In this document: positions 182-30,114 of the stretch, one piece after another
How positions within the stretch are numbered: position 1 is the first letter of the stretch
How the letters are laid out: each line of letters starts with the position of its first letter
Assembly (NCBI GenBank): GCA_004348015.1
Contig: QNVI01000016.1
Location: forward strand, 16,445-53,338
Reading direction: 5' to 3'
Source: Thermoproteota archaeon
GTDB lineage: Archaea > Thermoproteota > Methanomethylicia > Methanomethylicales > Methanomethylicaceae
Length of the DNA: 36,894 nucleotides
Translations under genes and position numbers: made by a program
Notes under the pieces: model-generated
Told to the model about the DNA's origin: nothing
The model's database searches: none
Seen by the model: the letters and a program-made list of their open reading frames with translations, nothing else

Positions 182-466
182 ATGAAAATTGTTTTTATTG
201 GTAATCCAGGACTATCATATGGATATAAAATATTTGGCATAGAGCCTATACCAGTAACTTCAAAAGAAGAATTTTTAAAAGCAATTGAAAAAGTATTAAG
301 AATGAATGATATTGGAATTATACTATTAGATAGTGATTTCTCTTCATTAGTAAAAGACTATATTCGTAATTTAAAAATAAAAACAACAATTCCCTTTATA
401 ATAGAAGTTCCTGGATTAAAATCCATTCCAGAAATGGATATTAAGCTCATTTCAATAAAGCGATAG
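182..466 (+). CDS. atpF: A-type ATP synthase subunit F
   Basis: This 94-residue protein is the small central-stalk F subunit (NtpG/Vma7 family) of the archaeal A1Ao ATPase, a soluble cytoplasmic part of the rotor. It has the family's Rossmann-like pattern: an N-terminal strand and turn (VFIGNPGLSYGYKIFGIEP), a central strand ending in LLDSDF where the family has a bacterial/archaeal response-regulator-like core, and a hydrophobic strand TIPFIIEVPG. The length is normal for the family (about 95-110). It is followed 9 bases later by subunit E, then A, B and D, which confirms the assignment by context. ATG 182 has no strong ribosome binding site, which fits translational coupling to the preceding gene. 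Confidence 0.92.
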   Translation: MKIVFIGNPGLSYGYKIFGIEPIPVTSKEEFLKAIEKVLRMNDIGIILLDSDFSSLVKDYIRNLKIKTTIPFIIEVPGLKSIPEMDIKLISIKR

Positions 467-475
467 GTGTGAAAT

Positions 476-1069
476 ATGAGCCAAAACATAGAAGCTTTTA
501 AACAAATGGTTGATAAATTACTAAATGATGCAAAAGAGAGAGTAATTACTATTATTAATAATACATTTGAAGATATACTAAAAATGTTTAATGAATCTGA
601 AAAATATACTATATCTCATTATAAAGAAACTTTATCTTCATATAAAGAAAGAGCAGAAATAGAATCTAAAAAAGAGATATCAAGAGCAGAAATAGAATCT
701 AGATTATATTTGCTAAATTTAAAAGATACATGTATTAATAAAGTCTTTGAAGAAGTAAAATCTAAACTAATAGAATATTGTAAAAGTGATGAATACATAG
801 AGATTATTTTAGAAAAATTAAAAAATATATCAAAGGAAATTCCTATAGAAGAACTTCTTATGAAAGAAGATGATATTAAACGTATAAAAATCACTAGACT
901 CAGAAAAATCTTGGGCTCTTCAGAAATAAAGCCTCATCCTATTGAAATAGGTGGATTCATTATTATATCTAAGAATGGTAGATTGACAATAAATAGGACA
1001 TTTGATTATTTAGTAGAAGCAGAAAAACAAGTTCTAAGATCAAAAATTGCATCAATTTTATTTAGGTGA
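476..1069 (+). CDS. atpE: A-type ATP synthase subunit E (peripheral stalk)
   Basis: This 197-residue protein is the E subunit, which pairs with subunit H as a coiled-coil peripheral stalk holding the A3B3 head to the membrane a subunit. Residues 1 to about 90 are almost entirely helical and rich in Lys and Glu, and the C-terminal half is a mixed alpha/beta head containing the [19 protein letters not shown] segment typical of the family's C-terminal domain (usually GGVVVES/D..GRI.vdNT). ATG 476 is preceded by AGGTG. Its TGA (1067-1069) sits within the ribosome binding site of atpA. Length is typical (about 190-205). Confidence 0.93.
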
Positions 1070-1074
1070 TGAAG

Positions 1075-2838
1075 ATGAAAATTGGTAAAATAATAAGAAT
1101 CAGTGGTCCTGTTGTACAGGCTGAAGGTGCTTTAGGTTTTGAAATGCATGAATTAGTAATGGTTGGAAATGAGGAATTAATAGGTGAAGTTGTTAGAATA
1201 GAAGGAGACATTATAACAGTACAAGTATATGAAGATACTATTGGTTTGAAAATAGGAGAACCTGTTAAAGGCTCTGGAATGCCTTTAGCTGTAGAATTAG
1301 GCCCTGGATTATTACAAAGTATATTTGATGGAATTCAACGTCCGCTTACTATCATAAGAGAAGCTACTGGTGATTTTGTAAGAAGAGGAGTTAAAACAAC
1401 AGCATTACCAAGAGATAAAAAATGGCATTTTGTTCCATTAAAGAAAGCAGGGGATTATGTAAAACCTGGTGAAATTATTGGAAAAGTCCAAGAAACACCA
1501 TTAGTAGAGCATAGAATTCTTATTCCTCCAAATAGAGAAGGTAAAATAGAATACATAGCAGAAGAGGGTGATTATACAATAGAAGAAATAATAGCAAAAC
1601 TTTCACTAAATAATACAACATACGATTTAAAAATGTATCATAAATGGCCTGTAAGAAGACCAAGACCTTATGTAGAACGTCTTGAACCAACAGAACCTCT
1701 TATAACAGGTCAAAGAATAATTGATACATTATTTCCAATTGCAAAAGGAGGAGCAGTTTGTATTCCTGGAGGATTTGGTACTGGCAAAACTGTGACTTCT
1801 CATCAACTTGCTGCATGGTCAGATGCTCACATAATTATATACATTGGTTGTGGAGAAAGAGGAAATGAAATGACTGAAGTTTTAATAAACTTTCCAGAAT
1901 GGAAAGATCCAAGAACTGGAAGACCATTAATGGAAAGAACAATATTAATTGCAAATACAAGTAATATGCCTGTAGCTGCAAGAGAAGCTAGTATATACAC
2001 TGGTGTAACAATAGCTGAATACTTTAGAGATATGGGATATGATGTCGCAATAATGGCAGATTCTACAAGTAGATGGGCTGAAGCATTAAGAGAAATTGCT
2101 GGAAGACTTGAAGAAATGCCAGCTGAAGAAGGTTATCCTCCATATCTTGCATCTAGACTTGGAGAATTTTATGAACGTGCTGGAAGGGTCAAAACATTAA
2201 GTGGACTATATGGATCTGTAACATTAATAGGTGCAGTTTCTCCACCTGGAGGAGATTTTTCAGAACCTGTTACTGTTCACACAAAAAGATTTGTTAGAGC
2301 TTTCTGGGCACTAGATACTGCATTAGCAAGTATGCGTCATTATCCTGCAATAAATTGGTTAATATCATATTCTGAATATGTTGATTATGTTGAAAAATGG
2401 TGGAATGAAAAAACTCATGGAAATTGGAAAAACCTAAGATTAAAAGCTCTTGAGATATTAAAAAGAGAAGATGAATTAAAAGAAATTATAAGATTAATTG
2501 GTATAGAGTCTCTTCCTGAAAGTGAAAAATTAATTCTTGAAACTGCAAGACTCTTAAGAGAAGGTTTTCTTCAACAAAATGCATATGATACAATAGATAC
2601 TTATTCTTCACCAGAAAAGCAATATAAACTTTTATATGCAATTCTTGAATTCCATAATATGGCACTTAAAGCAATTTCAAAGGGTATACCTGTTTCAAAG
2701 ATCATTTCATTAAGATCTGTTGTTGATTTAGCAAAAGCAAGAATGAATGTACCAAATGAGAAAATTGATGAAATAGACAATATTTTGAAACAGATAGAAT
2801 ATGAAATTAATAGTATTATGGAGGAGAAATCTTCATGA
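1075..2838 (+). CDS. atpA: A-type ATP synthase catalytic subunit A
   Basis: Catalytic subunit of the A1 head, three copies per enzyme, coupling ATP turnover to ion transport. The Walker A motif GGFGTGKT lies near residues 232-239, after the 'non-homologous region' insert (about 115-190) that distinguishes A from B. Other landmarks are the GERGNEM motif, [15 protein letters not shown] and the [10 protein letters not shown] loop, all family-typical. Length about 587, normal. GTG 1066 and ATG 1069 are also in frame, but GGTGAT (1065-1070) is an ideal ribosome binding site for ATG 1075, giving the N-terminus [12 protein letters not shown] expected in the family. The stop overlaps the atpB start as ATGA. 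Confidence 0.97.
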
Positions 2839-4208
2839 GTATTGAATATAAAACCATACAAAAAATTAGTGGTCCTTTAATATTTGTAGAAGGAGTCTCT
2901 GGAGTAGGATATAATGAACTTGTAGAAATAAGAGATCCAGAGGGAAATTTAAGAAGAGGAAGAGTTCTTGAAATTAATAGAAATATTGCAGTAGTTGAGG
3001 TTTTTGAAGGAACAACTGGTCTTTCTATTACATCTTCAACTGTAAGATTTCTTGGTAAACCTTTAACAATACCTCTATCAACTGAAATGCTTGGTAGAAT
3101 TTTTAATGGGCTTGGAGAACCAATAGATGGCGGTCCTCCTCCATTTACAGAGGAATATAGAGATGTAAATGGATTACCAATGAATCCATATGCAAGAGAT
3201 TATCCTACAAAATTTATACAAACAGGAGTCTCTGCTATTGATGGTATGAATACATTAGTAAGAGGACAGAAATTACCAATTTTTTCAGGTTCTGGTTTAC
3301 CTCATAATTTACTTGCAACACAAATAGCAAGACAAGCTACAATAGTTGGTGAAGAAGAAGGATTTGCTGTTATATTTGTAGCTATGGGTATAAAACATGA
3401 TGAAGCTGAATTCTTTAAGAAAAGCTTTGAAGAGTCTGGTGTACTAAAGAACTCAGCTCTATTCTTAAATTTAGCAGACGATCCTCCTGTAGAAAGATTA
3501 GTAACACCAAGATGTGCATTAACATTAGCAGAATATTTAGCATTTGAACAAGATATGCATATACTAGTAATACTGACCGATATGACAAATTATGCAGAAG
3601 CATTACGTGAGATTAGCGCAGCAAGAGAAGAAGTTCCAAGTAGAAAGGGATATCCGGGTTATATGTATAGTGATCTTGCTTCTATTTATGAACGTGCTGG
3701 AAGAATAAAAGGAAAGAAGGGAAGTATAACTCAAATGCCTGTACTTACTATGCCAAATGATGATATAACTCATCCAATTCCTGATCTTACTGGTTATATA
3801 ACAGAAGGACAAATTGTACTTGATAGAGATCTACATAGACGTGGTATATATCCACCAATAAATGTTCTTCCAAGTCTTTCTAGATTAATGAAGGATGGAA
3901 TAGGAAAAGGAAAAACAAGAGAGGATCATGGTCCAGTATCTAATCAGCTTTATGCTGCATATGCAAGAGCTCAAGAATTGAGAATGTTAAGTACTATAAT
4001 TGGAGAAGAAGGATTAACTGATAGAGATAAATTATACTTAAAATTTGGAGAATTATTTGAAAGAAAATTCTTAAGCCAAGGAATAAATGAAAATAGAACT
4101 CTAGAGACAACATTAAATATTGCATGGGAGTTACTTTCCATATTCCCAGAAAGTGAACTAACAAGAATTCCAGATCATATATTAAAGAAATATTATAAGA
4201 GGATATGA
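2835..4208 (+). CDS. atpB: A-type ATP synthase regulatory subunit B
   Basis: Non-catalytic nucleotide-binding subunit B of the A1 head, alternating with A in the hexamer. At 457 residues it has the usual length. It lacks a Walker A lysine loop: the equivalent stretch reads [10 protein letters not shown], the diagnostic SGSGLPHN of archaeal and eukaryotic B subunits. Other family motifs include [48 protein letters not shown] and the [17 protein letters not shown] segment. ATG 2835 overlaps the atpA stop by 4 bases and is preceded by GGAGGAGA, so the two are translationally coupled, which suits a 3:3 complex. Confidence 0.97.
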
Positions 4209-4211
4209 CTC

Positions 4212-4838
4212 TTGTCTCTAAGAGTTATACCCTCTAAGATGAATTTAATTCGTTTTAGGAGAACTCTTAATTTTTTAATTAGAGTTCATGATCTTCTTGA
4301 AGATAAGAAAGAAATTTTACTTTTAGAAATAAGTAAAAGGATAAATGAAACAATAAAATTAAGAAAAGAAGTTAATGAAATGCTGAAAAATGCATATGAA
4401 CTTTTAAATAAAGCTAACGTAATAATGGGCAATAAAAAAATAGAAATTATTGAACCAATAAGTGAATATAAAATTGAAATTAAAAAAAGAAAAATCATGG
4501 GAATTTCCATACCTGCTATTTCTTTCTCAAAAGAAAAAAAGCCTATTTCCTATGGAATCTCTCAACCTACTGTACTACTAGATAATTTTATTGAAATTTT
4601 TGATAAATGTACTCCAATGTTATTAAGATTAGCAGAAATGGAAATGATTTTAATAAAGCTATTAGAAGAAGTTAAAAACACTCAAAAAAGAATAAATGCA
4701 TTAGAATATGTTTTAATTCCTCGATATAAAAGCCTAATAGCATTTATATCTTCTGTTTTAGAGGAAAGTGAAAGAGAAGAATTTGTAAGAATTAAAAAAC
4801 TTAAGAGTATTTGGATGAGGAGGGCAGTACATGAGTGA
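4212..4838 (+). CDS. atpD: A-type ATP synthase subunit D (central shaft)
   Basis: Subunit D forms the long antiparallel coiled coil of the rotor shaft inside A3B3 and contacts F and the C subunit. The 208-residue protein begins with the family signature (IPSKMNLIRFRRTLNFLIRV), in which the short segment before the coiled coil is conserved, so TTG 4212 is preferred to the internal ATG at 4239. Two long heptad helices at about residues 10-75 and 140-200 flank a globular middle. It lies 3 bases after atpB, with a purine-rich GAGG upstream. Its last codons overlap the start of a 46-codon ORF at 4831. Confidence 0.92.
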   Translation: MSLRVIPSKMNLIRFRRTLNFLIRVHDLLEDKKEILLLEISKRINETIKLRKEVNEMLKNAYELLNKANVIMGNKKIEIIEPISEYKIEIKKRKIMGISIPAISFSKEKKPISYGISQPTVLLDNFIEIFDKCTPMLLRLAEMEMILIKLLEEVKNTQKRINALEYVLIPRYKSLIAFISSVLEESEREEFVRIKKLKSIWMRRAVHE

Positions 4839-4971
4839 AGAGGAATTAAAAATAAAAGAAATTTATGAAATGAAGAAAATTGAAATAAAAAAGCAAATTG
4901 AAGATGTTATTGATAAAATATCAAAAGAAATTGAAATGAAAAAAGAAGAAATATATAAAAGGGTTTTATAA
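4831..4971 (+). CDS. Small charged coiled-coil protein in the ATPase operon (46 aa)
   Basis: A short frame opens at ATG 4831 inside the last codons of atpD and ends at TAA 4969-4971. The purine-rich GGATGAGGAGGG sits just upstream and gives a strong ribosome binding site. The predicted protein is 46 residues, starts MSEEELKIKEIYEMKK, is about half Lys and Glu with regularly spaced Ile/Val/Leu, and should be one continuous helix without a membrane segment. In Sulfolobus acidocaldarius a small epsilon subunit gene lies at this place, between the D-type (gamma) and proteolipid genes, so this may be an equivalent. That is inference from position, since I see no clear sequence motif. It could also be a short H-like stalk helix. 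Confidence 0.6.
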   Translation: MSEEELKIKEIYEMKKIEIKKQIEDVIDKISKEIEMKKEEIYKRVL

Positions 4972-4975
4972 GTAA

Positions 4976-5368
<393 letters not shown>

Positions 5369-5384
5369 TGATTAGGTGTACTTA

Positions 5385-7280
5385 ATGTTCCGTCCAGAAA
5401 GGATATCAAAAACTTCTCTAATTTTTTTTAAATCTGATGCAGAAGAAGTCCTTAAAATATTAAGTAAACACGAAGCATTTCATATAATTATAAAAGAAAA
5501 CAATATAGAGTCTGGAAATATAAATAAACTAAAATTACTAATTGAAAAAATAGATGATATAATAAAAAGAATAAGAAATATTTCTGGCGAAGTAGAAATA
5601 GAATCTTATTATCAAACTTATTATCAAATTCCAGAATCAAAAGATATAACATCTTTGATTTCTAGTATAGAAAATGAAGTAATTAATTATGAGAATAAAG
5701 TAAAGGAAATTGAACAAATACTAAATTTAGAAAATTCACTTAGCTTTATTATTTCACTTTGGAGACCTATTGCTATTAAATTGAAGGAAATATTTCCAAT
5801 TAAATTTTACTCAAAGTATTTCTCATTTATTGCTTTTTATCAAAAAGAGTATCATCCTACTGTATTCAATATTCCTCTTCCAAATATCATTATTAATATA
5901 TCACAAAATCCTAATATAATACTATTAATTTGTTTTAAGAATGATGAATATAATATTAAAAAATATCTTGAAGAAGCTGGTTATGCAGAAATACCTAAAT
6001 TCAACAATATGCCAAAAGATATATTCGAAGTAGATGAAGTTATTAAATTATTGCAGGATAGAATTAATGATATATCTAAAATAAAAAATGAATTAATCTC
6101 TAATATATCTAAAATAACATCGAGATTATTTTACTTCAGATCAATTTTATCTGATTTTCTTTCTATTATTAATATCAAGGAAAATTATTCTTTTGGAAGA
6201 AATTTAGTTATATTAGAAGGTTATGTTCCAACAAGAAATACTAATTTATTATTTAAAGACTTAAGAGAAAAATTAAATGGTAGAATAATTGTAAATTATG
6301 TAGAAGAACATTCATCAAAGGATATTCCTGTTATATTTAGATATCCTAAATTTATTTCATTATTTGAAAAAATAACATGTTTATATGGTACTCCTTCATA
6401 TAATGAAATAAATCCAACACCAATTTTAGCCATAACATTTCCTTTATTCTTTGGACTTATGTTTGGAGATATTGGACATGGTATTATGTTATCACTTTTA
6501 GGATTATTCTTATATAAATATACAAAATCCTTATCAAGAATTGGAATCTATCTTTTTATATGTGGTATATTTTCTGCTATTATTGGTGGTTTTCTATATG
6601 GTGAAGCATTTGGTAAGCATATTTTCCATGGCATATTTTCACCTGGTGAAGATTTCATGTCATTACTCAAATTTTCATTATATATTGGTATAGCTCATAT
6701 TTCAATTGGCCTATCAATACAAATAATTAATAATTTAATACAGAATAAGAAAGTTGATGCATTTTTATTAAATCTACCAAGACTTATGCTTTACATTTGT
6801 TTTATATACTTAGTATTTGGTTTTGGTTTAAATATAATGAGATGGTTAGAAGGACCTATTCTAATAATGATCATTCCCATGATATTTATGATGATTGGAA
6901 AGCCTACATGGGCTCTTATATCCCATGGAAAAAGAGAATTTCTTTCAGTTTTTGGAGAAATAGGATTTGAAACTATTGATACAGTAATTCGCTTCATTTC
7001 AAATACCGTATCTTACTTGAGAATATTCGCAATGGTAATGGCACATATTTATCTTACAAATGTATTTTACAGCTTATCATATATTGCTGGAGAGGGAATT
7101 ACTGGAATTATATTTTCATGGTCAATGGCAATAATAGGAAATATATTTGTTGTTCTTTTAGAATCAATTGTAGCAGTAGCTCAAGATCTCAGGCTTCACT
7201 TCTATGAGTGGTTTAGTAAATTCTTTGAGAATAATGGAGTAAAATTCTCTCCATTTAAATTAACAATATTAACTAGATGA
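5385..7280 (+). CDS. atpI: A-type ATP synthase membrane subunit I (a subunit)
   Basis: The stator a subunit of Ao, which forms the ion half-channels against the c ring. Residues 1 to about 340 form the cytoplasmic domain with long helices that bind the peripheral stalks; the rest contains about seven or eight membrane helices. FGLMFGDIGHG marks the first membrane region and TVSYLRIFAMVMAHIYL contains the conserved arginine facing the c-ring carboxylate. Length about 631, near the family norm. GTG 5376 is in frame but lies in the AGGTG ribosome binding site; ATG 5385 gives MFRPERISK, the usual N-terminus (MLRPERM). Its stop overlaps the end of atpC on the other strand by 8 bp. Confidence 0.95.
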   Translation: MFRPERISKTSLIFFKSDAEEVLKILSKHEAFHIIIKENNIESGNINKLKLLIEKIDDIIKRIRNISGEVEIESYYQTYYQIPESKDITSLISSIENEVINYENKVKEIEQILNLENSLSFIISLWRPIAIKLKEIFPIKFYSKYFSFIAFYQKEYHPTVFNIPLPNIIINISQNPNIILLICFKNDEYNIKKYLEEAGYAEIPKFNNMPKDIFEVDEVIKLLQDRINDISKIKNELISNISKITSRLFYFRSILSDFLSIINIKENYSFGRNLVILEGYVPTRNTNLLFKDLREKLNGRIIVNYVEEHSSKDIPVIFRYPKFISLFEKITCLYGTPSYNEINPTPILAITFPLFFGLMFGDIGHGIMLSLLGLFLYKYTKSLSRIGIYLFICGIFSAIIGGFLYGEAFGKHIFHGIFSPGEDFMSLLKFSLYIGIAHISIGLSIQIINNLIQNKKVDAFLLNLPRLMLYICFIYLVFGFGLNIMRWLEGPILIMIIPMIFMMIGKPTWALISHGKREFLSVFGEIGFETIDTVIRFISNTVSYLRIFAMVMAHIYLTNVFYSLSYIAGEGITGIIFSWSMAIIGNIFVVLLESIVAVAQDLRLHFYEWFSKFFENNGVKFSPFKLTILTR

Positions 7281-8136
7281 TAAACTCCTGAACTATTGTA
7301 CTTGGTATAATTCCTTTTTCTATACTAATTGCAATTCTTATTATGTTCTTTATTTCAATTTTCTTCATTTCAATATATGCAATAATCTCTCCTAATCCTA
7401 CATAATCTTCATAGTACATTTTTTTCAATATTGATATTAACTTTTTTTCAAAATCTCTTTCTATTGCTCTTTGATTATCTTTATATTCCTCCATACTTAG
7501 TATGGATAAAGCCTTATCAATATTTTCTTCTTTTAATGCCTCGGAAAGTATTTTTTTATCAATTTTTCCTCCTTCTAATATTAATAATTTCATTAAAATA
7601 TCCTTTCTTATATTATTCTTAATTCCTCTTATTATTGTCAATACATTATGTTCATCTATTTTTAATGAAATATAGCTTTTCAATACATTGTAAATGTTAT
7701 ATTTTTTTGTCAATTCTATAATCTTTAAAATTCTATTTTTAGCTATAAATGAAATAACAACTCCTGGTACTTCATATTCAATAATTTTCTTGAATTCTTC
7801 ATTAATTTCATTTAATAAACCCTTCTTATACTTCTCTAAAATTGTTTTTGCAATATTCTCTTCTTCAAATTCTTGTTTTAATAATTCTAATAATTCTCTA
7901 TAAGAAGGTGCAATTTTTATAAATTCACTTAGTTCTGTATAAAACAATTCTAATAGTTTTTCTTCTATATTTCTTGAATCAGGTTTTACATCAGCCAATT
8001 CTGGATATATACTTCTTAATCTACTTACTAATTCATTTAAATCTTTAGAAGAAGTAAGTTCAATTAATTGTCTCTCACTGAGCATTTTACTTCTTTTTGC
8101 AGAGGCTTTAACTGCTGTATATACCACATCGCTCAA
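7273..8136 (-). CDS. atpC: A-type ATP synthase subunit C
   Basis: Subunit C (eukaryotic d, NtpC/Vma6 family) is the funnel that links the D/F shaft to the c ring. The protein is 287 residues, almost all helical, and opens with the family pattern YTAVKASAKRSKMLSERQL followed by LTSSKDLNELVSRL. It is somewhat shorter than many homologues (about 330-370), but has no visible break. Start TTG 8136 is preceded by AGGAGATG at a proper distance. It lies 3 bases after atpH on the - strand, so C and H form a separate unit converging on the main ATPase operon. Confidence 0.88.
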   Translation of the reverse strand: MSDVVYTAVKASAKRSKMLSERQLIELTSSKDLNELVSRLRSIYPELADVKPDSRNIEEKLLELFYTELSEFIKIAPSYRELLELLKQEFEEENIAKTILEKYKKGLLNEINEEFKKIIEYEVPGVVISFIAKNRILKIIELTKKYNIYNVLKSYISLKIDEHNVLTIIRGIKNNIRKDILMKLLILEGGKIDKKILSEALKEENIDKALSILSMEEYKDNQRAIERDFEKKLISILKKMYYEDYVGLGEIIAYIEMKKIEIKNIIRIAISIEKGIIPSTIVQEFII

Positions 8137-8139
8137 ATT

Positions 8140-8463
8140 TTACATCTCCTTAAATTTATTAAGGATATACTGAAGAACTTCACTTACAGCTTCATTCATG
8201 TTTTTTTCGCTTTTTCTTTTAATTTCTTCTCCTTCCTTTTCTACCATTTCTTTAATTTCTTCTATTTTCAATTTTGTATCTTTTTGTATTTTTAAAAATA
8301 AATTCTCTCCTTCTTTTTTCGCTTTTTCTTCAATTTCTTTTTCTATTTTTTTTGCTTCTTCTTCAGCTTTTCTTCTAATTTCTTCAGCTTTCTTTTTTGC
8401 TTCTTCTTCTATAGAAATTGCTAAATCTTCTGCTTTTTTAAGTCCTTCCAATATTTCCTTCAA
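8140..8463 (-). CDS. atpH: A-type ATP synthase subunit H (peripheral stalk)
   Basis: A 107-residue protein that is one long, highly charged heptad coiled coil (repeats such as KKKAEEIRRKAEEEAKKIEK), beginning MKEILEGLKKAEDLA. Length, composition and the N-terminal pattern match subunit H (also called G), the partner of E in the peripheral stalk. Start TTG 8463 has GGAGG upstream and overlaps the trmI stop by 4 bases; atpC follows after 3 bases. The Lys/Glu-rich code makes the complementary strand T/C-rich with few stops, which is why an open but meaningless frame runs opposite. A generic coiled coil would look similar, so the call leans on context. Confidence 0.85.
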   Translation of the reverse strand: MKEILEGLKKAEDLAISIEEEAKKKAEEIRRKAEEEAKKIEKEIEEKAKKEGENLFLKIQKDTKLKIEEIKEMVEKEGEEIKRKSEKNMNEAVSEVLQYILNKFKEM

Positions 8464-9292: not shown

Positions 9293-10495
9293 ATGCAAAA
9301 ACCCTTGGAAGGAATTCGTGTATTAAACGTTACACAGGCATTATTCGGGCCATACTGTGCTATGATTTTAGCAGATCTTGGTGCAGAGGTAATAAAAATT
9401 GAGAAACCTGGAACTGGTGATATGAATAGAGAATGGGGGCCATTCTTTCCTAATGTTCAAGGTCCAGATAAAAGTGGATATTATGTGAGTTTACATAGAG
9501 GGCAAAAAAGCATTACATTAAACTTAAAAACAGAAAAAGGAAAACAAATACTTAAAGAATTAGTTAAAATAAGTGATGTACTAATTGAAAACTTTAAGCC
9601 AGGAACACTAGATGGTTGGGGAATTGGATATGAGGAATTAAGAAAAATAAATCCAAGACTTATATATGCATGTGGCTCAGGTTTTGGACACTATGGTCCA
9701 TATAAAGATTGGCCAAGTTATGATATTATAGGACAAGCCATGGGTGGATTTATGGATTTAAATGGATGGCCAGATAAGCCTCCATGCAGAGCAGGTTCTT
9801 CTATAGGTGATATAGTAGCAGGAATGTTCCTTTGTATAGGTATACTTGTTGCACTTAGATATAGAGATATGACTGGAAAAGGACAGAAAGTAGATGTTGC
9901 TCAAATGGACTCAATGATTGCAATATTAGAAAATGCTGTTGTACGTTATAGTATAGAAGGAAAACCTCCAACAAGAATAGGTTCAAAACATCCAACAATT
10001 ACTCCATTTGATGTATTTAAAGCAAAGGATGGATATGTAGTAATAGCTGCAGGTAATGATGCTATATGGAGAAGACTATGTACTGCCATGGGAAAACCAG
10101 AATTAGCAGATGATCCAAGATTTCGTACAAATCCATTGAGATGTGAGCATGAGCCAGAACTTAAACCAATAATAGAGGAATGGACAAAAGATAGAACAAG
10201 ATGGGAAATAGTTAATTTATTATTAAAGCATGATGTTCCTTCTGCTCCAGTTTACAATGTAGCAGAAGCTGTTGAAGATCCTCATACAAAAGCAAGAGAA
10301 ATGGTTGTTGAAATTTATCAACCTCAATATGGAAAAGTAAGAATAGCCGGTTGTCCAATTAAATTCTCAGAAACTCCAATAAAAATAGACAAACCAGCAC
10401 CACTATTAGGTCAACATACTGAAGAAATATTAACACAACTTTTAGGATACACTAAGGAACAAATAGAAGAACTAAAAAAAGAAAATGTTATATGA
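9293..10495 (+). CDS. CaiB/BaiF (class III) CoA-transferase family protein
   Basis: Family III CoA-transferases move CoA between an acyl-CoA donor and an organic acid through a covalent aspartyl intermediate. The 400-residue protein has the whole fold: N-terminal PLEGIRVLNVTQALFGPYC, DLGAEVIKIEKPGTGD, RGQKSITLNLKT, and RAGSSIGDIVAG, in which Asp173 matches the catalytic aspartate of formyl-CoA transferase. The C-terminal part has PSAPVYNVAEAVEDPH, also typical. Substrates cannot be told from sequence; formyl-CoA, succinyl-CoA:aromatic acid and carnitine enzymes all share these motifs. GGTGAT precedes ATG 9293. The next gene, a biotin ligase, overlaps its end by 11 bases, suggesting joint expression. 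Confidence 0.92.
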   Translation: MQKPLEGIRVLNVTQALFGPYCAMILADLGAEVIKIEKPGTGDMNREWGPFFPNVQGPDKSGYYVSLHRGQKSITLNLKTEKGKQILKELVKISDVLIENFKPGTLDGWGIGYEELRKINPRLIYACGSGFGHYGPYKDWPSYDIIGQAMGGFMDLNGWPDKPPCRAGSSIGDIVAGMFLCIGILVALRYRDMTGKGQKVDVAQMDSMIAILENAVVRYSIEGKPPTRIGSKHPTITPFDVFKAKDGYVVIAAGNDAIWRRLCTAMGKPELADDPRFRTNPLRCEHEPELKPIIEEWTKDRTRWEIVNLLLKHDVPSAPVYNVAEAVEDPHTKAREMVVEIYQPQYGKVRIAGCPIKFSETPIKIDKPAPLLGQHTEEILTQLLGYTKEQIEELKKENVI

Positions 10496-11429
10496 TTTTT
10501 TCCTTACTTCTGATTTTATTTCAGGAGAAAAAATAGCAAAAAAATTGAATATAAGCAGAGTAGCTGTTCATAAGAAAATTCAAAATCTTAGAAAACAAGG
10601 TTATGTTATAGAGGGTATTCGTGGAAAAGGTTATAGACTTATACCAAGATTTGATGGTCTCCTTCCATTAGAATTAAAACTAAGATTAAAGACTAAAATT
10701 TTTGGAAAGGAGATTATAACATTAGAAAGTATAGATTCTACACAAATATTGATAAAAGAATTAGCAGAAAAAGGTTTTCCAGAAGGAACTTTGGTAATTG
10801 CATTAGAACAAACGAGTGGAAAAGGAAGAATGAATAGAAAATGGATATCTCCTAAAGGAGGACTTTGGTTTAGTTTATTATTACGTCCATCAATACTTTC
10901 TAAAGATATTTATAAACTTTCATTATTGTTTGGAGTAGCAATAACTATTTCTTTAGAGCATTATGGTATAAAAGCATCACTTAAATGGCCTAATGATATT
11001 ATAATTAATAATAGAAAATTATGTGGAATATTATTAGAAGGTGATATTGAATTAGATAAAGTAAATTTTGTAACCGTAGGAATAGGAATTAATGTTAATT
11101 TTCCTTCTAATATTCTTCCTAATGATTTAAGATCTTCATCAATATCTATTTATGATATATTAGGAAGAAATATAGATAGAGCAGAACTATTATGTAAAAT
11201 CTTAGAATATTCTGAGAAACTATATCTTCAAGCAATTAATGAAGGTTTCTCTAATATTATTTCACTATGGCGCTCAAAATCATCTATATTTGGAAAATCT
11301 ATTGAAGTTAAATTACTAGATAAGAGTATTAAAGGTATAGCTATAGATATTGATGATGATGGTTCATTAATTTTAAATCAGAATGGAAAAATAATAAAAA
11401 TTTATTCTGGTGATGTTATCTTCTTATAG
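10485..11429 (+). CDS. birA: Biotin--protein ligase with N-terminal winged helix
   Basis: Activates biotin as biotinyl-AMP and attaches it to a lysine of biotin carrier proteins. Residues 1-50 are a winged helix-turn-helix (KIAKKLNISRVAVHKKIQNL, then a wing ending IRGKGYRL), so like E. coli BirA it may also be a biotin-sensing repressor. The catalytic part has GKGRMNRKW (112-120, the biotinyl-AMP loop), KWPND (167-171) and NNRKLCGIL with the conserved lysine, followed by a C-terminal SH3-like domain. ATG 10485 lies within the end of the CoA-transferase gene. No carboxylase or carrier gene is in the window. The end overlaps the oppositely transcribed SufB/D gene by 14 bp. Confidence 0.94.
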   Translation: MLYDFFLTSDFISGEKIAKKLNISRVAVHKKIQNLRKQGYVIEGIRGKGYRLIPRFDGLLPLELKLRLKTKIFGKEIITLESIDSTQILIKELAEKGFPEGTLVIALEQTSGKGRMNRKWISPKGGLWFSLLLRPSILSKDIYKLSLLFGVAITISLEHYGIKASLKWPNDIIINNRKLCGILLEGDIELDKVNFVTVGIGINVNFPSNILPNDLRSSSISIYDILGRNIDRAELLCKILEYSEKLYLQAINEGFSNIISLWRSKSSIFGKSIEVKLLDKSIKGIAIDIDDDGSLILNQNGKIIKIYSGDVIFL

Positions 11430-20711: not shown

Positions 20712-20990
20712 TCATCCTCCTGCTATTGGAGGAAATATTGAGATACAATCTCCATCTTTCAATTCTGTTTTAATATCATTTAATCCTCTTATATCTTTTC
20801 CATTTAATAAGATTTTTACCATATCTTTTAATCTTCTTCCTTCAAAAATTATATTTTCTAAAATCGAACCAAATCTCTCTAATAATAAATTTAGAACATC
20901 TTCTATAGTAGTTCCTTCACATTCTATCTCCATACTTGATATGTCTAATACCTCTCTCAATATTGCGAAAAATTCTACTTTTATTTTCAT
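20712..20990 (-). CDS. moaD: MoaD/ThiS-like ubiquitin-fold sulfur carrier
   Basis: A 92-residue beta-grasp protein ending exactly in the diglycine needed for thiocarboxylate formation (FPPIAGG, Gly91-Gly92). The start KIKVEFFAILREV matches MoaD-type proteins and ISIFPPIAGG is the MoaD tail, not the ThiS one. It should donate sulfur to molybdopterin (tungstopterin) synthesis, though archaeal members may also tag proteins as SAMPs. The gene is divergent from the tungsten-type oxidoreductase at 21057, which needs this cofactor; the pairing of MoaD-like genes with AOR genes is common. ATG 20990 has no ribosome binding site, so the message may be leaderless. Confidence 0.92.
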   Translation of the reverse strand: MKIKVEFFAILREVLDISSMEIECEGTTIEDVLNLLLERFGSILENIIFEGRRLKDMVKILLNGKDIRGLNDIKTELKDGDCISIFPPIAGG

Positions 20991-21056: not shown

Positions 21057-23582
21057 ATGAATGGATATATGGGGAAAATATTAAGAGTTGATTTATCTTC
21101 AAAAGAAATTTCAATTGAAGAATTAAATATGGATATAGCATATCAATTTATTGGTGGAAGAGGATATGGTGCTAAGGTATTATTTGATGAACTTCCTGTA
21201 GGCATAGACCCTTTAGGTCCAAAAAATAAGTTAATATTTATGACAGGCCCTCTTACAGGCACACCTGCTCCTACTTCTGGCAGATATTCTGTATCTACAA
21301 AATCCCCTCTTACAGGTACAATATTTGATGCTAATGGTGGTGGATATTTTGGAGTTGAATTAAAAAGAGCTGGATTTGATGGAATTATAATAGAAGGAGT
21401 AAGTGATACTCCTGTATTTCTTTCTGTAATAAATGGAAAAGCAGAACTTAATGATGCAACTAATATTTGGGGCTTGGATGTATTTGAAACAGAAGCTCGT
21501 CTTAAACAGATTATAGGTGAGCCATATGCTAGAGTTGCTTGCATTGGTCCTGCTGGAGAAAGACTTGTTAAAATAGCAGCTATAATGAATGATAAACATA
21601 GAACTGCAGCTAGAGGTGGTGTAGGTGCTGTTATGGGATCAAAAAAACTTAAAGCAATTATAGTTAAAGGCTCAGCAGAGATTCCTATTGCAAATCGTTA
21701 TGCATTTATGAAAGAAGTAAAGCGTTGTATAAATGTAATTAAAGGTCATCCAGTTACTGGTGATGGACTAGGAAGATATGGTACTGCTATATTAATTCAT
21801 ATAATTAATAAAGCTGGAATACTTCCAGTAAGAAATTATAAATCAGGTTTCTTTGAGGAAGCTGAAAAAGTAAGTGGAGAATACATGGCAAAAACAATTT
21901 TAAAAGGAAAAAAAGGATGTTTTGCATGTCCAATAATGTGTGGAAGAATTACAAATGTAAAATTACCTAATGGTAATATATTAGAAACAGAAGGACCAGA
22001 ATATGAAACAATATGGGCTTTCGGTCCAAATTGTGGTATAAGTGATATTGAAGCTATAGCCATTGCTAATGATATGTGTAATAAATATGGAATTGATACA
22101 ATATCAATGGGGCAAGTAATTGCTTTTCTTATGGCATGTTATGAAAATGGTAAAATTGATGCTAAGAATATAGGATTTGAACCAAAATTTGGTGATATAG
22201 AGAGTTTATATAAATTAATAAAAATGACAGCTTTTAGAGAAGGCATTGGAAATATATTAGCTGAAGGGGTTAAAAGAGCATCTGAAATATTTAATGCTGA
22301 GGATTATGCTTTTCATGTTAAAGGACTTGAGCTTCCTGCATATGATCCAAGAGGAGCAAAAGGAATGGCTCTCGCCTATGCAACTTCAAATAGAGGAGGA
22401 TGTCATTTAAGAGCCTTTATGGTTGCTCCTGAGATTTTAAGTATTCCAAGATACTTAAATCCAAATTCTTATGAAAATAAGGCATTACTTACAAAAATTA
22501 TGCAAGATGTATTTGCAGTTCTAGATTCGCTCATATTATGTAAATATTCTACACTCGCATTATTCTCTACACTAAATTTTGAGCCTGACTTTTATGCAAG
22601 ATTGCTTACAACTGCTACAGGATTTTATGTTGATAGAGAGGAATTCTACAAAATTGGAGAAAGAATATACAATTTAGAAAGACTCTTTAATGTTAGAGAA
22701 GGCTTTTCAAGAAAAGATGATACTTTACCTAAAAGACTATTAACTGAGCCATTACCAGATGGTCCTGCAAAAGGAGAAATAATTAATTTAGATAGATTAC
22801 TAAATGAATATTATGCTATAAGAGGTTGGGATTATAATGGAGTACCAACAGATAAGAAGGTGTTGGAATTGGGTCTAACTCCACTTTATGATGGTCCAAA
22901 AATTCAAGTAGCTATTGATGAAAGATATATGAAGGATGCATTACCTATTGCTGAAGCAGCGTATCGCGGAGGAGCTGATATAATAGAAGCAGGAACACCT
23001 TTAATTAAATCAGAAGGTCTAAGAGTAATAAAAGAATTTAGAAAATTATGTCCAAATGCTACAATTGTAGCTGATCTTAAAACATTTGATACTGGATGGT
23101 TGGAAACAGAATTAGCTGCTGAAAATGGTGCTGATATAGTAACAGTAATGGGAGCAACAGATGATTATACAATAAAAGATGCAGTAGGTGCAGCTAGAAA
23201 GTATGGTCTTAAGGTAATGGTAGATTTAATGAATCTTAAAGATCCAATATCAAGAGCTATAGAAGTTGAAAAATTAGGTGTTGATATTGTTTGCTTACAT
23301 GTTGGTATAAGTGCACAAATAAGAGAAAGAGAAGTAGATCAAAAAATTGCTATGGTAGAAAGTCTTGTTAAATCAGTAAATATACCAGTTGCAGTAGCTG
23401 GAGGAATAAAGTTAGAAGTTGTACCATTATTAGTAAAAGCAGGTGCTAAAATAATTATAGTTGGTGGAGCTATTACAAAATCTGCAAATCCAGAAGAAGC
23501 TACAAGAAGATTTGTTACCACAGTAAGGAAATTATGGAATGAGTACAAACAAAAATTGACTTCTTCTTCGCCTAAAGGATGA
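21057..23582 (+). CDS. Aldehyde:ferredoxin oxidoreductase fused to 3-hexulose-6-phosphate synthase
   Basis: One 841-residue chain holds two complete enzymes. Residues 1 to about 608 are a tungsten-type aldehyde:ferredoxin oxidoreductase: MNGYMGKILRVDLSS start, GPLTGT and ARGGVGAVMGSKKLKA pterin-side motifs, the [4Fe-4S] ligands Cys288, Cys291, Cys295 (CFACPIMC) and Cys495, and the usual end YYAIRGWDYNGVPT. Residues 614-838 are a (beta/alpha)8 HPS domain of the OMP decarboxylase superfamily: QVAIDERYMKDALPIA, IIEAGTPLIKSEG, DLKTFD with the Asp673-Lys675-Asp678 triad, His748, VAVAGGIK and IIIVGGAIT. HPS interconverts hexulose-6-phosphate and ribulose-5-phosphate plus formaldehyde; AOR-family enzymes oxidise aldehydes including formaldehyde. 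3-Keto-gulonate-6-phosphate decarboxylase is a less likely reading. The frame is continuous and composition uniform. Confidence 0.93.
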   Translation: MNGYMGKILRVDLSSKEISIEELNMDIAYQFIGGRGYGAKVLFDELPVGIDPLGPKNKLIFMTGPLTGTPAPTSGRYSVSTKSPLTGTIFDANGGGYFGVELKRAGFDGIIIEGVSDTPVFLSVINGKAELNDATNIWGLDVFETEARLKQIIGEPYARVACIGPAGERLVKIAAIMNDKHRTAARGGVGAVMGSKKLKAIIVKGSAEIPIANRYAFMKEVKRCINVIKGHPVTGDGLGRYGTAILIHIINKAGILPVRNYKSGFFEEAEKVSGEYMAKTILKGKKGCFACPIMCGRITNVKLPNGNILETEGPEYETIWAFGPNCGISDIEAIAIANDMCNKYGIDTISMGQVIAFLMACYENGKIDAKNIGFEPKFGDIESLYKLIKMTAFREGIGNILAEGVKRASEIFNAEDYAFHVKGLELPAYDPRGAKGMALAYATSNRGGCHLRAFMVAPEILSIPRYLNPNSYENKALLTKIMQDVFAVLDSLILCKYSTLALFSTLNFEPDFYARLLTTATGFYVDREEFYKIGERIYNLERLFNVREGFSRKDDTLPKRLLTEPLPDGPAKGEIINLDRLLNEYYAIRGWDYNGVPTDKKVLELGLTPLYDGPKIQVAIDERYMKDALPIAEAAYRGGADIIEAGTPLIKSEGLRVIKEFRKLCPNATIVADLKTFDTGWLETELAAENGADIVTVMGATDDYTIKDAVGAARKYGLKVMVDLMNLKDPISRAIEVEKLGVDIVCLHVGISAQIREREVDQKIAMVESLVKSVNIPVAVAGGIKLEVVPLLVKAGAKIIIVGGAITKSANPEEATRRFVTTVRKLWNEYKQKLTSSSPKG

Positions 23583-27910: not shown

Positions 27911-28459
27911 ATGGCAAAGATAAGAACTTTACACGTAGAAGACGTAATGCGTAAAGATGTAATAAAATTACCTGAGGAAGCTAATGTAAGAAAGGTAGCT
28001 ATAGAGATGAGTGAAAAAGGAGTGGGTTCTATAGTTATAACACATAATGACCATCCAGTTGGCATAATAACTGAAAGAGATTTAGTTAGCAGAGTTATTG
28101 CAAAAGGTTTAGATCCTGAGAAAACATTGGCAAAAGAAATAATGTCATCACCATTATTTGTTATAAGTCCAAAAGCTGAAATTATGGAAGCAGCAAGGAA
28201 AATGTCTTCATTAAATGTTCGTAGATTAATTGTTGTTAAAGATGGAAAAATGATTGGAATCATAACATCAAGAGATATATTAAATATAGCACCAGAATTT
28301 ATTGAAATATTAATAGAAGCATCAAAAAATAGATTAATTAGAACATCAGAAGAAGAAATGGTAGGATATTGTGATAATTGTGAAGAATGGTCAGATTCGC
28401 TTAAGGAAGTTAATGGTCAATTTCTATGTGAAAACTGTCGTTTAGAATTTAGTCAGTAA
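27911..28459 (+). CDS. CBS-domain pair protein with C-terminal zinc ribbon
   Basis: A 182-residue protein with two CBS units, a Bateman module that normally binds adenosyl nucleotides or AdoMet. CBS1 spans about 8-65 (VEDVMRKDVIKL, GIITERDLV) and CBS2 about 75-130 (IMSSPLFVISP, GIITSRDIL). A short ribbon follows with Cys154, Cys157, Cys173 and Cys176 (CxxC...CxxC), probably binding zinc. No enzyme domain is present, so it is likely a regulator or partner protein. It is the first of three CBS genes in a row, with 19 bases to the next one. Confidence 0.92.
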   Translation: MAKIRTLHVEDVMRKDVIKLPEEANVRKVAIEMSEKGVGSIVITHNDHPVGIITERDLVSRVIAKGLDPEKTLAKEIMSSPLFVISPKAEIMEAARKMSSLNVRRLIVVKDGKMIGIITSRDILNIAPEFIEILIEASKNRLIRTSEEEMVGYCDNCEEWSDSLKEVNGQFLCENCRLEFSQ

Positions 28460-28478
28460 TCCTAAAATTGGTGAGAAA

Positions 28479-29312
28479 ATGAGTGTAAGTGACTTTATGT
28501 CATCACCTGTTATTATAGCATATCCAACTGATAATTTAGCCTATGTAAGAAATTTAATGTTAAAGAAAGGAGTAAGTCGATTAGTTGTCATTGAAAGAAA
28601 TCATCCAATAGGTATGATAACAAGAAAGGATATTATTAGGAAACTTAGAAGTTATGACTTTCAACAGAGAGATTTTGATTCCATACTCGTATCAGAAATA
28701 ATGCGTAGTCCTATAATTTCAATAAATGAGAATTCTTCAATAATTGAAGCTGCTAAAGAGATGCTTAATGAGAATATTAGAGGATTACCTGTAGTAAACA
28801 ATAAAGGAGAATTAGTTGGTATAATAACAAAAACTGATATAACAAGATACTTTGCTGAAAATATTGAATCCAAATATACTGTAAAATCAATTTGTCAAAC
28901 TAATAACATTCCTATTGTTAATAGGCATCATAGTGTATATAGAGTTATTGATATATTAGAGAAATCTAATAATGATAGAGTTATAGTAGTTGATGGTGGA
29001 AAACCAGTAGGAATAATTACTGAAACAGATTTATCTTTTATCACACTTCCAAAGAAAGTTGAAAGTTTTATTAAAAGAATTAGAAAGGAATATGGTGAAG
29101 TTTCTTATGAACGTATTTATCTAATACCTGTTGCTGAAGATATTATGACACCAGATCCAATAACAATAAAAGAAGATGAAGATGCTAATTTAGCAGCTAA
29201 AATGCTAATTGAATATAATATTGGTGGAATGCCAGTAATAAATGATGATAATAAATTGACTGGTGTAATTACAAAATTTGATTTTGTTAAAGCATTAGCA
29301 AAGGGTGGATAA
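28479..29312 (+). CDS. Four-CBS-domain protein
   Basis: The 277 residues are made of four CBS units and nothing else: VSDFMSSPVIIAYP (about 2-60), VSEIMRSPIISINE (about 68-125), VKSICQTNNIPIVN (about 130-190) and AEDIMTPDPITIKE (about 212-275), each ending in the GxITxxD-type motif (GMITRKD, GIITKTD, GIITETD, GVITKFD). Two Bateman modules could form a flat disc that binds up to four nucleotides. ATG 28479 has GGTGA 4 bases upstream. The gene ends 1 base before the next CBS gene, so they are surely co-transcribed. Ligand and target unknown. Confidence 0.93.
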   Translation: MSVSDFMSSPVIIAYPTDNLAYVRNLMLKKGVSRLVVIERNHPIGMITRKDIIRKLRSYDFQQRDFDSILVSEIMRSPIISINENSSIIEAAKEMLNENIRGLPVVNNKGELVGIITKTDITRYFAENIESKYTVKSICQTNNIPIVNRHHSVYRVIDILEKSNNDRVIVVDGGKPVGIITETDLSFITLPKKVESFIKRIRKEYGEVSYERIYLIPVAEDIMTPDPITIKEDEDANLAAKMLIEYNIGGMPVINDDNKLTGVITKFDFVKALAKGG

Positions 29313-29313
29313 T

Positions 29314-30114
29314 ATGAGACTAATGGACATACTAGTAAAGAATCCTCCTATGTTGAATAAAAATAGACCCATAACTGATACGCTGGAGATTTTAAGAAAG
29401 GAATCAATAGATAGTGTATGTATATATGATGAGAAACCCATTGGTACAATTAGTTATAGAGATATTCTAAGTAAAATAGGTCTAGAGAGAGTAAGAAGAA
29501 TAGTCCCAGAAGCTCTTTATAATTCAAGTTTTGTTAGGTATTTTCCTACCTATGTATCAGATGAATGTTCTATTAGAAAATGTGCTGAATTAATGATAGA
29601 ATTTAATACAAACTCTCTTCCTTTTTTCTATGGTGATACTTTTCTTGGTATGATTTATAGACGAGATATGATAAGATTTATTGAGGATTCTTCTATAACT
29701 ATAGAGTCATTAATGAATAGAAATTCATTAGTGATATATCCATATAGTAGAATAATACATGTGAGAAGGATGATGTTAGACAATAATCTATCTTTTTTAC
29801 CAGTCTTAAGTGATAATGGCAAAGTTTTAGGTGCAGTAACCGAAGGGGAAGTTGTTGATACTCTAATAGAATTTTATAGAAGAACACCAGAAAAACATCA
29901 AAAGGCTAGAATAAGGGAAATATTAGTTACAACATCAATGGTTGTGGATGTTCCTATTGTAGAAAAAGAAGCTATTCTTTCCGATATTGCTGTAGAACTT
30001 AGAAAAAAAGGATTAATAGGAGCTATCGTTACTGAGAATCAAAAAGTTATAGGAATTCTTACTTATAATGAAATACTAAAATATATAGTTCATAGCTTTC
30101 CAGAGGGATTATAA
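29314..30114 (+). CDS. Four-CBS-domain protein, more diverged
   Basis: Third CBS gene in the row: 266 residues with four CBS-like units beginning LMDILVKNPPML, YVSDECSIRKCAEL, IESLMNRNSLVIYP and IREILVTTSMVVDV. The GxIT motifs are worn (GTISYRD, GMIYRRD, GAVTEGE, GILTYNE), so nucleotide binding may be lost at some sites. GTG 29305 is in frame but sits in the ribosome binding site AGGGTGGAT; ATG 29314 is preferred. It follows the second CBS gene directly. The Mut7-C gene starts 8 bases after its stop, which may tie nucleotide sensing to RNA metabolism, but that is inference. Confidence 0.88.
   Translation: MRLMDILVKNPPMLNKNRPITDTLEILRKESIDSVCIYDEKPIGTISYRDILSKIGLERVRRIVPEALYNSSFVRYFPTYVSDECSIRKCAELMIEFNTNSLPFFYGDTFLGMIYRRDMIRFIEDSSITIESLMNRNSLVIYPYSRIIHVRRMMLDNNLSFLPVLSDNGKVLGAVTEGEVVDTLIEFYRRTPEKHQKARIREILVTTSMVVDVPIVEKEAILSDIAVELRKKGLIGAIVTENQKVIGILTYNEILKYIVHSFPEGL

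Follow-up and report, generated by a model that had tools for sequence, protein, structure and literature searches.

A single gene joining a predicted tungsten-type aldehyde:ferredoxin oxidoreductase to a 3-hexulose-6-phosphate synthase domain in Thermoproteota, with a putative role in pentose and formate supply

The fusion gene and its surroundings

The window, by which we mean the whole stretch of 36,894 nucleotides that was analysed, stems from a 1.12 Mb genome of Candidatus Methanomethylicota (Methanomethyliaceae) that is 90.6% complete. One of its open reading frames, which starts with ATG, has no internal stop codon and encodes 841 amino acids, joins an aldehyde:ferredoxin oxidoreductase (AOR) to a 3-hexulose-6-phosphate synthase (HPS). 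This genome carries one copy of the fusion. The features of the locus are as follows.

20712..20990, minus strand: ThiS/MoaD-family gene, divergent, 66 bp upstream of the fusion (PF02597, E 6e-16)
21057..23582, plus strand: AOR-HPS fusion gene, 841 codons in a single open frame, same architecture in 27 genomes
21057..22883, plus strand: AOR half, residues 1-609 (AFOR_N and AFOR_C of Pfam; PDB AORs 9mqx, 1aor, 9g7j)
21783..21785, plus strand: T243, second-shell residue (AOR-Pf Thr243; role in PMC12096430), invariant in 25 fusions
21918..21941, plus strand: CxxCxxxC motif with Cys288, Cys291 and Cys295, 4Fe-4S ligands, invariant in 25
22005..22007, plus strand: E317 (AOR-Pf Glu313), tungsten-site acid-base residue, from alignment to 1aor, invariant
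22341..22343, plus strand: Y429 (AOR-Pf Tyr427), from alignment to 1aor, invariant
22404..22406, plus strand: H450 (AOR-Pf His448), from alignment to 1aor, invariant
22539..22541, plus strand: C495, fourth 4Fe-4S ligand, invariant in 25
22884..22895, plus strand: short joint linking the AOR and HPS halves (residues 610-613), constant in length in the aligned fusions except that of G022
22896..23555, plus strand: HPS half, residues 614-833 (OMPdecase/HUMPS; TIGR03128, 201.9 bits; PDB 9lj9, 3ajx)
23073..23090, plus strand: DxKxxD motif of the HPS half, here DLKTFD (residues 673-678), with D673, K675 and D678 invariant in 25

Pfam places AFOR_N at residues 6-205 (E 7e-83), AFOR_C at 221-607 (E 2e-151) and OMPdecase/HUMPS at 614-819 (E 3e-35). 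The same scan found no Fae domain in the reading frame, the AFOR domains standing there instead. An AlphaFold model of the fusion (mean pLDDT 82, pTM 0.85) matches both the AOR fold and the HPS fold. The sequence-only reading had described an uninterrupted 841-codon frame with both enzymes, and the open reading frame together with the Pfam and NCBIfam matches bears this out; the four cysteines and the DLKTFD motif lie at the positions it had assigned to them.

The divergent ThiS/MoaD gene accompanies the fusion in all loci examined from the window's family (f1) and from families f3 and f6, while the other neighbours differ. Its product likely helps to make the pterin cofactor. On the 3' side of the fusion, fumarase genes are found in f1, and a CTP synthase gene follows directly in 5/5 f6 loci and in one f3 locus (L021-L026). 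Elsewhere in the window, an A-type ATPase cluster, read from the translations, occupies positions 182-8463, with most subunits on the plus strand and its final two genes (7273-8136 and 8140-8463) on the minus strand. A Class III CoA-transferase gene (9293-10495; PF02515) overlaps the start of an apparent biotin-protein ligase gene (10485-11429), and three consecutive CBS-domain genes lie at 27911-30114, and their order is conserved in those other Methanomethyliaceae loci that extend to this point.

Recurrence and ancestry of the fusion

Across two overlapping sets, of 61 related genomes and of 398 Thermoproteota genomes, the fusion is encoded by a single continuous reading frame in 27 species genomes from eight families of Thermoproteota: 16 in f1, five in f6, and one each in f2, f3, f13, f15, f28 and f40, the f13 copy beginning at a contig end. 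Three additional fusions are split by contig ends. The other AOR-HPS fusions that had been suggested for a search thus exist, and the recurrence of one architecture across eight families indicates that the join is real. Indeed, while the window derives from a fragmented metagenome-assembled genome, the length-conserved joint within the same reading frame in 27 genomes refutes an assembly error, to which we give practically no chance. The nearest named record is Candidatus Methanomethylicota Bin S31 (97% identical), and other named records with the fusion belong to Methanomethyliaceae and Methanosuratincola. A contig scan seeded with short fusion peptides returned full fusions in Methanomethylicota-type records only, and the retrieved locus flanks of relatives contained no AOR gene adjoining a standalone HPS gene.

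In a tree with 16 non-fused AORs, the AOR halves from 17 fusions group together as a single clade (100% SH-aLRT), and the HPS halves also form one clade (96%), with the exception of a long branch from genome G022. A single ancient fusion event is the simplest reading of the trees. The G022 fusion (L084:241-2730) is strongly diverged, with identities of 44% in the AOR half and 35% in the HPS half, and the latter scores 104 bits against TIGR03128, far under the cut-off. An independent second fusion in this genome was considered and rejected, its AOR half being nested inside the fused clade with 100% support. Since the long branch of its HPS half finds no placement in the tree, HPS activity of this copy is uncertain, and it may have another function.

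Active sites of the two halves

Statements on residue invariance refer to an alignment of 25 fusions. In the AOR half, all four 4Fe-4S cysteines (C288, C291, C295, C495) are invariant, and so are T243, E317, Y429 and H450, the equivalents of the second-shell residues Thr243, Glu313, Tyr427 and His448 named for AORs sensu stricto (PMC12096430). The metal-site and second-shell residues of that group are all present. The AOR half is 46-49% identical by fold alignment to the P. furiosus AOR (1aor), the C. autoethanogenum AFOR (9g7j) and 9mqx, with 46% for the C. autoethanogenum enzyme; the fusion departs from these AORs by the HPS domain at its C-terminus and by a few additional residues beyond the fourth cysteine. 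The bit scores were 631 for the AOR 9mqx and 613 for the AOR 1aor, well above the 385 for the FOR 1b25, and membership of the FOR group was rejected on these grounds. The sequence-only reading had drawn on FOR as a formaldehyde-oxidising precedent, and this kinship did not hold. We conclude that the AOR half is predicted to be a tungsten-type AOR sensu stricto rather than an FOR-type enzyme.

The HPS half passes the NCBIfam model for 3-hexulose-6-phosphate synthase (TIGR03128) narrowly, with 201.9 bits at a cut-off of 200, and its closest solved structures are an HPS-PHI fusion (9lj9), the nearest of all, and an HPS (3ajx). All catalytic residues of the suprafamily (D621, E644, D673, K675, D678, D703 and H748) are invariant; within the DLKTFD motif T676 is invariant as well, and L674 and F677 vary. 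The related activity that had to be considered is that of 3-keto-L-gulonate-6-phosphate decarboxylase (KGPDC). We take E112, R139, T169 and R192 (E. coli numbering) to be the positions that distinguish KGPDC, and changes in KGPDC of the type E112D/R139V/T169A raise its HPS activity. The first three of these positions also appear in titles of PDB mutants, and the PDB holds the E112D/R139V/T169A mutant, including one entry with D-ribulose 5-phosphate. In 25/25 fusions the four positions carry the HPS-type residues D703, I751, A781 and A805, and on the HPS half the KGPDC models fall well short of their cut-offs (106 at a cut-off of 250, and 88 at a cut-off of 294). These residues and low scores led us to reject an identity as KGPDC, and the HPS half is predicted to be of the HPS type. 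A C-terminal half that decarboxylates keto-gulonate 6-phosphate or has lost its activity would be in keeping with the narrow pass of TIGR03128, with the strong divergence of the G022 copy and with Ser752, which replaces the Asp of the HPS loop GIDEQ in 23/25 fusions (the f13 and f15 members keep the Asp); in view of the HPS-type positions and the invariant catalytic residues, however, we regard it as very improbable.

Gene content and a possible role in pentose and formate supply

Apart from the fusion, the window's genome has no HPS; it also contains three further AOR-family genes, all without an HPS domain. The phosphohexulose isomerase (PHI) gene that the sequence-only reading had proposed to look for elsewhere is present at C7, and a ribose-5-phosphate isomerase (Rpi) gene is located at C24. 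Gene absences rest on metagenome-assembled genomes and are provisional: Fae and methenyl-H4MPT cyclohydrolase (Mch) were found in 0/22 genomes of the window's family, the window's genome included, neither the window's genome nor its sister yielded a transketolase, and a search for formate routes in the window's genome detected neither formate-THF ligase (FTHFS) nor pyruvate formate-lyase (PFL). In archaea, AICAR is formylated by PurP at the expense of ATP and formate, and two genes of the PurP family (PF06973, PurP C-terminal) occur in 22/22 genomes of the window's family. The picture differs elsewhere. Family f6 has Fae and Mch alongside the fusion, f3 has Mch, and several f3, f6 and f13 genomes encode a second, longer HPS (319-437 aa), that of G036 being an RraA-like fusion. 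Genomes in which Fae was not found, for which the sequence-only reading had suggested a search, thus make up the window's family, but since f6 combines Fae with the fusion, the latter does more than stand in for Fae. In addition, more than half of the fusion-bearing genomes of the window's family have transketolase.

HPS is reversible and its equilibrium usually favours condensation; prompt oxidation of the formaldehyde would therefore pull pentose formation and avoid toxicity. Our preferred reading, to which we assign a probability of roughly 0.68, is that the fusion is a bifunctional enzyme of a reversed ribulose monophosphate (RuMP) pathway, which would provide ribulose 5-phosphate and formate for purines. 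PHI, encoded elsewhere, would convert fructose 6-phosphate to hexulose 6-phosphate, which the HPS half would split into ribulose 5-phosphate and formaldehyde; on the same polypeptide, the AOR half would oxidise the formaldehyde to formate and reduce ferredoxin. Removal of the formaldehyde would draw the unfavourable split forward and prevent damage. Ribulose 5-phosphate could then proceed via Rpi to ribose 5-phosphate and PRPP, and the formate could be used by PurP-family enzymes, which need it together with ATP for purine synthesis. We infer these substrates, the direction and the fate of the formate from gene content and conserved residues. Points in favour are the invariance of both active sites in 25 fusions, the position of the fusion as sole HPS of the window's genome and the constant pairing with the ThiS/MoaD gene. 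Ribulose 5-phosphate synthesis coupled to formaldehyde oxidation had already been suggested from the sequence, and apart from the kinship with FOR this suggestion fits the HPS-type half, the intact AOR site, the presence of PHI and Rpi, the retention of the fusion across numerous genomes, and the failure to find Fae, Mch and transketolase in the window's genome. The use for formate, which is indicated by the PurP-family genes, was not part of that suggestion. A more ambitious version, in which the HPS site channels formaldehyde to the tungsten site and a single chain thereby gives both the ribose and C2/C8 of the purines in methanogens that lack the H4MPT and folate C1 enzymes sought, seems to us tentative and on balance doubtful.

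The preferred reading is weakened by Ser752, by the presence of Fae and Mch in f6, of Mch in f3 and of transketolase in many fusion genomes, and by the clade to which the AOR half belongs. AORs sensu stricto have wide substrate ranges (PMC12096430), and formaldehyde is a poor substrate of the C. autoethanogenum AFOR (PMC12727526). The AOR half might therefore act on different aldehydes, such as those arising in amino acid catabolism, the fusion serving stability or shared regulation only, and the three further AOR-family genes in the window's genome are compatible with this view. Nevertheless, a single length-conserved fusion has been kept in eight families, the product of HPS is itself an aldehyde, and the same logic is apparent in the parallel Fae-HPS fusion, so that we consider this explanation unlikely.

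Alternatively, the HPS half could serve assimilation or detoxification by fixing formaldehyde, either external or made from formate by the AOR half, into hexulose 6-phosphate and then fructose 6-phosphate. The usual equilibrium of HPS speaks for this direction, and operation in the forward direction has been suggested for Brockarchaeota (PMC8065059). However, assimilation would consume ribulose 5-phosphate in a genome where no transketolase was found for its regeneration, the reduction of formate with ferredoxin is energetically uphill, and formate does not serve as a source of energy for a cultured relative (PMC12244365). Fixation of formaldehyde made from formate, which the sequence-only reading had put forward as the reverse mode, was not supported, and assimilation as a whole appears improbable.

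Circumstantial evidence that formate is a desired second product of the preferred pentose-forming route comes from two Methanomethyliaceae genomes without the fusion, G003 (L090:4875-8552) and G013 (L091:1151-4822). Both encode a divergent standalone HPS with a PFL gene 4-7 bp behind it, so that where AOR-HPS is missing, HPS seems again to be tied to a formate-making enzyme. These PFL genes pass the cut-off for true pyruvate formate-lyases (1151 and 1153 bits, respectively, against 994). In G003 the PFL gene is followed by a PFL activase gene (258 bits against a cut-off of 232), in the place of which G013 has a 251-aa reading frame. Both genomes also carry transketolase, and no PFL match was found in the fusion genomes of the window's family.

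A close parallel is the archaeal Fae-HPS (NF009833), in which a C-terminal HPS likewise stands behind a formaldehyde-consuming enzyme, and which other families from the class and phylum of the window's genome possess. Fae-HPS of M. hungatei (Mhun1628) has been proposed to trap formaldehyde immediately while pentoses are being made (PMC5241800). Whereas Fae loads formaldehyde on H4MPT without a redox change, the partner in AOR-HPS would yield formate and reduced ferredoxin. HPS is fused to another domain also in HPS-PHI (9lj9) and in the HPS-RraA/MenG-like proteins (NF005442), but there it is N-terminal and the partner is the isomerase or an RraA-like domain. Lastly, AORs have been proposed to dispose of RuMP formaldehyde in Culexarchaeia, Brockarchaeota and Asgard archaea. 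The idea of AOR converting formaldehyde to formate is the same, but these are separate proteins, with no fusion reported and no specific AOR tied to HPS. We found no description of an AOR-HPS fusion in the open-access literature searched.

Our findings suggest a pentose phosphate route for methyl-reducing methanogens that lack the methanopterin formaldehyde route, and in some genera transketolase, together with a possible source of formate for their purines. If the preferred reading is true, AOR-HPS would be the redox counterpart of Fae-HPS, and one tungsten aldehyde oxidoreductase would gain a definite physiological substrate. Methanosuratincola carries the fusion gene too and has a species in culture, and the medium of Methanosuratincola petrocarbonis LWZ-6 contains tungstate (PMC12244365), so that this reading is testable now.
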